A DNA stretch of 64,000 nucleotides from an uncultured Bacteroidales bacterium (GTDB lineage Bacteria > Bacteroidota > Bacteroidia > Bacteroidales > Paludibacteraceae), in assembly GCA_944322025.1 (NCBI GenBank), contig CALUOH010000028.1:1-64000 (forward strand), in the 5' to 3' direction. The position numbers were made by a program, and so were the translations under genes. Positions 45,862 to 48,773 of this stretch are shown in pieces; the stretch's first letter is position 1; each line of letters begins with the position of its first letter. Under the pieces are notes generated by a model that saw only the letters and a list, made by a program, of their open reading frames with translations, was not told where the DNA came from and ran no database searches.

Positions 45862-46575
45862 CTACACGCCCCTCCTGACTGCATCGGCCACGGCGACAAG
45901 GTGGGCAGCCACTACACCCGCCGTCTCTGTCCGCAGGCGGCTGCCGCCAAGAGAGACACCCACAAATCCCGCAGCCACTGCCTCACCCACCTCATCTTCA
46001 GAGAAATCGCCCTCAGGGCCTACCATGACAACAGCATCGCGTGCAGCGACACAGGCACGCAGCAGATATTGCTTCTCCATATCATAACAATGGGCTATGA
46101 AACGACCTTCGGCCTTCACCCCAGGCACAAAATCGGAGAACTCTACTGCCGGGTTCAGACGCGGCACTTTGGCATGGAGGCTCTGCTTTGAGGCGGAGAG
46201 GAGTATCTTCTCTATACGCTCCATTTTCAGCGTCCTGCGCTCCGAATAGCGGCAGATGACAGGGGTAAGTTCGTCCAGCCCTATCTCCGTGGCCTTCTCG
46301 ACGAACCACTCGAAACGGTCGATGTTCTTAGTCGGTGCCACGGCCATGTGGAGCGAATAGCGGCGCGCGCCGTACTCTCGCACAACTGACAGCACCCGCA
46401 CCTCGGTGCGCTTAGGATGTGCAGCGAGTATCTCAGCTTCATACAGACTTCCCCGTCCATCTATAAGATGTATGGTATCGCCCGTCTTGTGACGCAAGAC
46501 CTTCACACAATGCAACGACTCCTCTTCTGGCAGAAGAGGAGTCGTCTCTATATCAGGTGCATAGAACAGGTTCAT
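45862..46575 (-). CDS. rsmE: 16S rRNA m3U1498 methyltransferase RsmE
   Basis: RsmE, 237 residues, a SPOUT methyltransferase that methylates N3 of U1498 in 16S rRNA using S-adenosylmethionine. The N-terminal PUA-like part (MNLFYAPDIETTPLLPEEES..HCVKVLRHKTGD) and the knot motifs VGPEGDFSEDEV and VSLGGSRLRTETAGVVAAH are diagnostic. Start 12 bp after the META lipoprotein stop. A 7-bp inverted repeat surrounds the stop. Confidence 0.94.
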   Translation of the reverse strand: MNLFYAPDIETTPLLPEEESLHCVKVLRHKTGDTIHLIDGRGSLYEAEILAAHPKRTEVRVLSVVREYGARRYSLHMAVAPTKNIDRFEWFVEKATEIGLDELTPVICRYSERRTLKMERIEKILLSASKQSLHAKVPRLNPAVEFSDFVPGVKAEGRFIAHCYDMEKQYLLRACVAARDAVVMVGPEGDFSEDEVGEAVAAGFVGVSLGGSRLRTETAGVVAAHLVAVADAVRRGV

Positions 46576-46587
46576 AGCACCACTGTA

Positions 46588-47256
46588 TTATTGTGCAACG
46601 GCGTTCTCATTGACCTTCATGGCCTGCATCTGCACCCTCTTAGGGCAGGCAGCTTTTACCTGCGAGCACTTCGCGCTGTCATTAACGCACTTGCGCATAC
46701 CGTCCTTACAGCATGGCTTTTTAGCACAGGCCGCGCTGTCACCCTTGCAGCACTTGGCTTTCTCGCATGCGGCACTATCCTTTACACAAGGTTTCTGGCA
46801 GGGCTTGTCACATGCCTTTTTGCACTCAGCCTTGCAGCACTCGCGTACAGCGAAAACGGCTATCGCCTCCTCGCCCTTGTAGAACGTCACGGCTGTGTCA
46901 GCCACAGAGAAGCGGTCAGCCTCGCCCATCATCTTGACCATCAGGCTCTCGGCCTCCATCGATGCGGGATCGCACATCATACGGGTCATGCCGGCAGCAC
47001 CGAACTTGATGGCATCACCTTCGGTCTCGTAGCCGCCGAAGAAATTATTGCATCCGGCCGCGCCGTTCACCTTGTTTGCAGTGTCGAGCACCATAAACAC
47101 CCCTTTCATCATGGCTTTCTGGTCAATGGACTTGCCATAGAGGCTCACTGCGTCAAGCCTTTTGCCTACGAACGCCGAAGCGTCCGCCTTTTTCGCACAA
47201 GAACTGAAAACGGCGACTGTCACGAGAGCCGCCATAAGAAAAAACACTTTTCTCAT
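46588..47256 (-). CDS. META-domain lipoprotein with cysteine-rich tail
   Basis: A 222-residue lipoprotein (MRKVFFLMAALVTVAVFSSC, lipobox cysteine at 20). Residues about 30-130 form a META/HslJ-like domain with VNGAAGCNNFFGGYE and MTRMMCDPASMEAESLM, the family seen in heat-shock protein HslJ. The last ~75 residues are unusual: 15 cysteines in lysine/alanine/proline repeats such as CCKAEC, KKACDKPCQKPC, KCCKGDSAAC and KKPCCKDG. This tail could bind metal or form a disulphide-rich surface. It is upstream of rsmE by 12 bp and 28 bp downstream of another lipoprotein. Confidence 0.85.
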   Translation of the reverse strand: MRKVFFLMAALVTVAVFSSCAKKADASAFVGKRLDAVSLYGKSIDQKAMMKGVFMVLDTANKVNGAAGCNNFFGGYETEGDAIKFGAAGMTRMMCDPASMEAESLMVKMMGEADRFSVADTAVTFYKGEEAIAVFAVRECCKAECKKACDKPCQKPCVKDSAACEKAKCCKGDSAACAKKPCCKDGMRKCVNDSAKCSQVKAACPKRVQMQAMKVNENAVAQ

Positions 47257-47293
47257 ACAATACACATTTTATAATTAGTGATTTAACTTTCAA

Positions 47294-47809
47294 TCACTCA
47301 ACTGTGAAACCTATCTTCATCCTCGGCAGGACAAAGTCCATCTCACCACAACAGGTGTGGAAGTCGCCCGCATAGACCGTGTAGTACTCTCCGGGTTTCA
47401 AAAAGTCAGTCTCACTATGCGGCGCACAACCTAACCTGTACTTATATGAGCCATGCGGAGGTATTTTATTTACACCAGCGACATGTGACCTTGCCCATCC
47501 TGCGCTATAAACCTCATTCCCGTCCAAATCATATACTTTGCCGTAATAGTTACGGTCAAAATCAGGGTGGTGTACATACAATTCCGTATGGCAGAGAGTG
47601 TCATTCCTCAAATTCTCTATCTCGAAGACCATCTCTATTGTCTCTCCCACCTTGAATGTATTACATTTCTCACCAGCCTCATTTTCAAGTCTGTAAGTGA
47701 ACTTCACCCCATCGTAGAGATAGGTGCATTCGCCCATCGGTACATCGTCACGCGAACTACACGCAGCCAACAGCAGTACCGGAAAGAGGAGTAAGGAAAG
47801 TTTTTTCAT
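47294..47809 (-). CDS. Hypothetical lipoprotein
   Basis: A 171-residue lipoprotein of unknown family. The signal MKKLSLLLFPVLLLAAC has a lipobox cysteine at 17. The rest is rich in strands and cysteines (GECTYLYDGVKFTYRL, GETIEMVFEIENLRNDTL, YRLGCAPHSETDF, DFHTCCGEMDF), resembling an immunoglobulin-like fold. It is the first gene of a run with the META lipoprotein and rsmE. Confidence 0.8.
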   Translation of the reverse strand: MKKLSLLLFPVLLLAACSSRDDVPMGECTYLYDGVKFTYRLENEAGEKCNTFKVGETIEMVFEIENLRNDTLCHTELYVHHPDFDRNYYGKVYDLDGNEVYSAGWARSHVAGVNKIPPHGSYKYRLGCAPHSETDFLKPGEYYTVYAGDFHTCCGEMDFVLPRMKIGFTVE

Positions 47810-48232: not shown

Positions 48233-48335
48233 TAATAGGCTTGTATTTTGACACGCGCCACGGTGCATGACCTCTGCCGTGAGGAGAGGCGGAAATCGGA
48301 GAGAGAGATTTTATTGTCAGATTTATACTACATAT

Positions 48336-48773
48336 ATGAATACATGGTTTGAATGTAAGGTGACGTTTGACCGCACGGGCGAGGACGGGCTGATAAAGAA
48401 GGTGACAGAGCCTTATCTCGTCGACGCGCTCTCGTTCACCGAGGCGGAGACGCGCATCTGCAAGGAGGTGCAGCCGTTCGCCACGGGGGAGTTTACTGTG
48501 GCGAACATCAAGCGGTGCAAGATAGCGGAGATGTTCTACAACGAGGATGGCGACAAATGGTATCGCTGTAAGGTGAACTACCTCTCGGTGGACGAGGAGA
48601 AGGGCGTGGAGAAACGCATAGCGCAGACGATGATGGTGCAGGCATCGGACTTCAAGAATGCCGTGGACACACTCATCAAGGGCATGGAGACCGCGCTGGG
48701 CGACTACGAGATAGCAAACGTGACGGAGACGGCCATACTCGACGTGTTCCAATACGAAGCTCCGGAGCAGTAG
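48336..48773 (+). CDS. DUF4494 domain-containing protein
   Basis: A 145-residue cytosolic protein of the DUF4494 family, function unknown. It opens MNTWFECKVTFDRTGEDG and has two halves that look alike: WFECKV..LVDALSFTEAETRI and WYRCKVNYL..MMVQASDFKNAVD, suggesting an internal duplication. The start ATG 48336 is used. A longer frame to 48267 has no support. It is 23 bp upstream of yggS on the same strand, an arrangement that suggests co-expression. Confidence 0.83.
   Translation: MNTWFECKVTFDRTGEDGLIKKVTEPYLVDALSFTEAETRICKEVQPFATGEFTVANIKRCKIAEMFYNEDGDKWYRCKVNYLSVDEEKGVEKRIAQTMMVQASDFKNAVDTLIKGMETALGDYEIANVTETAILDVFQYEAPEQ

Follow-up and report, generated by a model that had tools for sequence, protein, structure and literature searches.

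Why should a small lipoprotein of the META (HslJ-like) family, which is widespread and tied to envelope stress, end in a long tail crowded with cysteines? The question is raised by a gene on the minus strand of the window, as we call the whole 64,000-nt stretch of DNA from an uncultured Bacteroidales bacterium analysed here. The gene occupies positions 46588..47256 exactly as a sequence-only reading had placed it, from ATG to stop, and encodes 222 aa; its open frame aligns over the whole CDS, at 83% identity, with an ortholog (L026) from Candidatus Aphodosoma intestinipullorum, the nearest relative and a name that occurs in work on chicken and pig gut metagenomes. The META domain and the lipoprotein family are known; judged from its sequence, the Cys-rich tail appears to be a new variant on that domain, and the literature searched, a body of work outside which most subscription papers lie, yielded no description of a tail of this kind on a META protein.

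The protein starts with a predicted signal peptide and lipobox (47197..47256, minus strand, read from the sequence), in which the motif FSSC20 ends the hydrophobic stretch and the presumed lipidated cysteine, C20, stands at the same place in all nine positional orthologs. Surface export signals of lipoproteins follow a rule that calls for an acidic stretch after the lipobox cysteine; read by eye, the sequence at that place is AKKADAS, with no acidic stretch. The signal peptide and lipobox would place the META domain, residues 35-130 (46867..47154, minus strand), on the outer face of a membrane. This domain matches Pfam PF03724 with an E-value of 5.7e-20 and a score of 71.8 bits, where the cut-off is 24, which makes the protein a member of the META family, and scores 18.5 bits against a cut-off of 168 with the HslJ equivalog NF007766 (NCBIfam), which leaves it outside that narrower group. 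With the META/HslJ-like proteins of PF03724, such as E. coli HslJ and Leishmania META1, themselves related to each other (PMC3270026), the window protein shares the signal peptide, the domain and a conserved pair of cysteines (C69 and C95 here), and it differs from them in the low equivalog score and in its tail of 84 residues. The tail spans residues 139-222 (46591..46842, minus strand); its 84 amino acids include 15 Cys, 17 Lys and 14 Ala and lack aromatic residues. The sequence-only reading had described a META protein that is lipid-anchored and has a Cys-rich tail, and the sequence bears this out as a prediction, with the count of 15 cysteines correct and the tail length, put at about 75 residues, too short. 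An AlphaFold model built from 6 alignment rows had a mean pLDDT of 44.7 and was unusable.

The cysteine content of the tail is far above what the surrounding genes would lead one to expect. Eleven ordinary nearby genes, picked by hand, hold 40 Cys in 2725 residues, and at that rate 15 or more cysteines in 84 residues would arise with P = 1.8e-12. Among the 287 stop-to-stop segments of at least 80 aa in the window, the tail provides the 80-aa stretch richest in cysteine, the runner-up containing 11. Successive cysteines are spaced 1, 4, 4, 4, 4, 7, 5, 1, 7, 5, 1, 7, 7 and 7 residues apart, so that CC is present and CxC absent. The stretch CDKPCQKPC (46786..46812, minus strand), located by motif scan, follows the pattern C-x2-P-C-x2-P-C, which it has in common with the tails of a second genus; in about 1.41 million six-frame residues, all the DNA examined, this pattern matched 13 times, and every match was a copy of one of four tailed META genes (G000, G006, G378 and G379). 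Its position is not conserved: in genus g1 it comes early in the tail, in genus g57 at the end. PC pairs exceed those of shuffled sequences in each of these four tails (p 0.017, 0.006, 0.004 and 0.003), and no enrichment of CxxxC over shuffles was found in them (p 0.20 to 0.51).

Codon comparison of the window gene with L026 yielded pS 0.58 and pN 0.054 for the head of the protein, and pS 0.87 and pN 0.17 for the tail (pN 0.10 for the tail core, without the divergent last 18 residues); dS of the tail was not computable because its synonymous sites are saturated at this pS. All 15 cysteines of the window tail are kept in L026, which has two more (17 Cys), and 42 of the 65 aligned tail positions other than cysteine are identical. 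The corresponding Fisher p is 0.004 when the window cysteines alone are counted and 0.078 when the two extra cysteines of L026 are taken as changes. The last residues of the tail, which are Cys-free in the window, are poorly conserved. By this comparison the tail is real coding sequence held under purifying selection, and its cysteines are likely, but not firmly, under stronger constraint than the residues beside them.

The repeated units of the tail had been read as a sign of expansion by slippage, a proposal borne out in part. Base comparison revealed two adjacent 39-nt units of 13 aa each (46702..46779, minus strand), DSAACEKAKCCKG and DSAACAKKPCCKD, which share 23 of their 39 bases in the window and are 72% identical in L026. 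Since both species have both units, the duplication predates their split and is, on this comparison, an old one. Tandem Repeats Finder detected no array in the tail, and this, together with the saturated synonymous sites across which all 15 cysteines have nevertheless been kept, speaks against recent slippage as the origin of the tail.

Downstream of the META gene, at a distance of 12 nt, lies rsmE (45862..46575, minus strand; Pfam PF04452, E 1.6e-36), encoding a 16S rRNA methyltransferase, and the other flank conserved by synteny is a DUF4494 gene (48267..48773, plus strand; PF14902, E 8.2e-56). Adjacency of rsmE and a META gene was observed in nine genomes and defines the positional orthologs; these are tailed in 5 of the 9 genomes and in 3 of the 4 genera, and all five tailed genes adjoin rsmE with the DUF4494 gene nearby. 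The META genes at the same place in two members of the window's genus, G002 and G007, encode proteins that stop directly after the domain, and tailless genes also adjoin rsmE in G019 and G239 (genus g12). No META gene lies beside rsmE in three further genomes of the window's genus (G003, G004 and G005), and rsmE was not found in two others (G001 and G008). A tree of META domains joins G023, G000/G006 and G002/G007 in a supported group (99/88) but does not resolve where the genes of g57 and g12 belong, so that the orthology of the latter two sets rests on synteny; at least two changes of tail label are required on this tree.

The distribution of tails was assessed with a full-length model searched against 358 genomes of the family, of which 70 matched at an E-value of 0.001 or better. 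Of the 71 matches listed, 68 were read (all save G270, G273 and G368), and these, joined by loci from other searches, make up a set of 128 loci with 80 META ORFs. Only five of the 80 carry a long Cys-bearing tail, with 15 (G000), 17 (G006), 11 (G378), 7 (G379) and 4 (G023) cysteines beyond the domain, the last accompanied by several histidines (HQHCGKHQ..HKHECQGHNHG), and these five are also the only tailed genes among the 68 family matches read. In a sample of the order, 41 of 393 genomes matched at E 1e-6, and in a sample of the phylum 68 of 395 matched; the loci read, 28 of the best from each sample, contained no Cys-rich tail, and since only those were read, tails outside the family could be missed. 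The earlier remark that META proteins usually end after their domain agrees with all of these counts. A model of four tails (A4) scored convincingly, among the 358 genomes, only in the four tailed META genes, with two further matches at E 0.07 and 0.08. The idea of the tail as a mobile module attached to other proteins was rejected: beyond G000/G006, the matches in the genome of origin and the 358 family genomes were limited to 27 weak ones, with E from 0.002 to 0.1, and the 22 read by eye (all except L033, L036, L038, L041 and L042) contained no comparable tail. A plasmid search gave no match, and transfer by plasmid was likewise discarded.

Taken together, these data lead us to propose that the tail is an envelope-anchored, thiol-rich buffer that binds metal in the manner of a metallothionein and is carried on an HslJ-like domain, a reading to which we assign a probability of about 0.45. 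Behind the META domain, the protein would extend into a flexible, positively charged and probably disordered segment, whose clustered CC, CxxPC and C-x6-C thiolates may bind soft metal ions, perhaps Cu(I), Zn or similar. The cell might then benefit from a membrane-tethered buffer of metal or thiols joined to a stress-related, chaperone-like domain. We favour metal-thiolate binding because of the density of thiols, the CC pairs, the lysines beside cysteines, the mixed Cys/His tail of a second lineage and the lack of a VKOR or DsbB match in the genome. Several observations speak against it: none of the neighbours of the META gene was identified as a metal gene, the flanks being rsmE, the DUF4494 gene and a gene for a small lipoprotein; CxC is missing; the tails matched no family in Pfam (five tails, E up to 10) or NCBIfam (two tails) and no sequence in the PDB; and four positional orthologs are tailless.

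Comparison with known thiol-rich proteins yields a similarly mixed picture. The tail resembles metallothioneins in its very high cysteine content (15/84, about 18%) without F, W or Y, in its CC pairs and in having lysine beside cysteine. It differs from them in being fused to a lipoprotein domain that would lie outside the cytoplasm and in lacking both a family-model match and arrays that combine CC with CxC, the latter being common in metallothioneins. The copper storage proteins Csp1 and Csp3 also have many cysteines per chain, in CxxxC spacing, and Csp1 is located outside the cytoplasm; unlike them, the tail has proline beside cysteine, places its cysteines on no single helix face and has no Pfam match. 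An amphipathic helix striped with cysteines, as in Csp, was rejected on a moment at 100 degrees of 0.16 (p 0.63) for the window tail and p 0.68 for that of G006. PcoB, an outer-membrane copper channel, contains a disordered His/Met-rich region that is needed for copper resistance and serves copper efflux (PMC12509749). NlpE is tied to copper resistance and lipoprotein traffic, and since its CXXC is dispensable for Cpx activation, the analogy with NlpE is weakened (PMC6538781). Fusion lipoproteins of NlpE and META (as at locus L084) are comparable in joining the META domain of an envelope lipoprotein to a Cys-bearing module, and dissimilar in that the NlpE domain stands in front, as opposed to a low-complexity tail behind.

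A wider evolutionary scenario, possible rather than probable in our estimation, would have an extracytoplasmic, membrane-tethered metallothionein arise by tail growth: at a fixed locus (DUF4494 - META - rsmE), Cys or Cys/His tails acting as metal sponges would have taken on a shifting make-up in several genera, and be absent in others, within one family of the Bacteroidales. Whatever its chemistry, a selected and naturally varying thiol-rich tail at one locus furnishes tailed and tailless pairs within a single genus, G000/G006 as against G002/G007, which suit direct testing of metal or redox handling by the META family.

The tail might instead be oxidised, either as a compact, protease-resistant knot of disulphide bonds or as a reversibly oxidised sink for oxidants that extends an oxidative-stress role of HslJ. 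Such a role is documented for A. baumannii HslJ, which acts under OxyR control and protects against H2O2 (PMC11724541). The loci read supplied 148 META domains, of which 139 have both cysteines of the conserved pair (C69 and C95 in the window protein), 9 have neither and none has a single one; the nine pairless domains have V with G, S or A at the two sites, a subgroup that lost both. This pattern is a strong sign that the pair forms a disulphide, and, the two positions covarying as the partners of a disulphide do, the compartment may well oxidise thiols and probably makes disulphides. The genome of origin (94.6% complete) gave no match to VKOR or DsbB, so that no standard periplasmic partner for thiol oxidation is seen; of 14 control genomes, 3 and 6 gave matches in these searches. 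In view of the covarying pair, some envelope proteins are nevertheless likely to be oxidised, by another route. Against an oxidised tail stand this lack of VKOR and DsbB, the odd number of tail cysteines in both species (15 and 17) and the histidines alongside cysteine in the G023 tail, which suit metal better, and we consider it rather unlikely. That this locus has tails time and again, including one rich in Cys and His, together with the missing VKOR and DsbB matches, makes us lean towards free thiols or bound metal.

An interaction segment, in which lysines would bind anionic surfaces or a partner and cysteines would serve covalent anchoring or cross-linking, would account for the excess of positive charge in the window tail (19 K+R versus 9 D+E) and in that of G006 (22 versus 9); this charge is not shared, the G378 and G379 tails being by sequence reading rich in E, D and H, whereas cysteine is common to all, which makes such a segment an improbable explanation. 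Least probable by far, and largely contradicted already, is a neutral extension born of slippage after loss of an old stop codon and tolerated without function: the internal 39-nt duplication and the close relatives G002 and G007, which end at the domain, would agree with it, but the retention of every cysteine across saturated synonymous sites, the lack of a tandem array and the reappearance of tails at the same locus in other genera do not.

Beside the META gene, a minus-strand gene at 47294-47809 encodes a small lipoprotein-like product with a sub-threshold Pfam match to a lipoprotein signal; it is 80% conserved in L026, whereas the seven remaining loci of the comparison gave no match. A 285-aa open frame on the plus strand (46417-47274) runs antisense to the META gene; it is partly open in L026 as well, and codon usage on the opposite strand most likely accounts for it.

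The loci read also contained META proteins of other layouts. Three loci of the order and phylum samples carry a nitroreductase domain rather than a Cys tail; in two of them, L156:931-1890 and L153:931-1890 (both minus strand), from one genus of the order (g100), META and nitroreductase form a single-frame, lipoprotein-like fusion (PF00881, E 4e-27 and 1.5e-27; META, E 2.4e-19 and 5.4e-20), and L151, from a third g100 genome, shows by eye the same layout. A META lipoprotein of G327 (L092:1316-1792, plus strand) has 8 Cys, six of them, including the lipobox cysteine, clustered before the domain (CCNGGSCPKG..), so that here the Cys-rich stretch separates lipobox and domain, and its domain has lost the conserved pair. 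The NlpE-META fusion lipoprotein at L084:1075-1869 (plus strand) matches PF04170 with E 3e-22 and PF03724 with E 5.9e-23, and similar layouts with LPCADC occur in several other loci.
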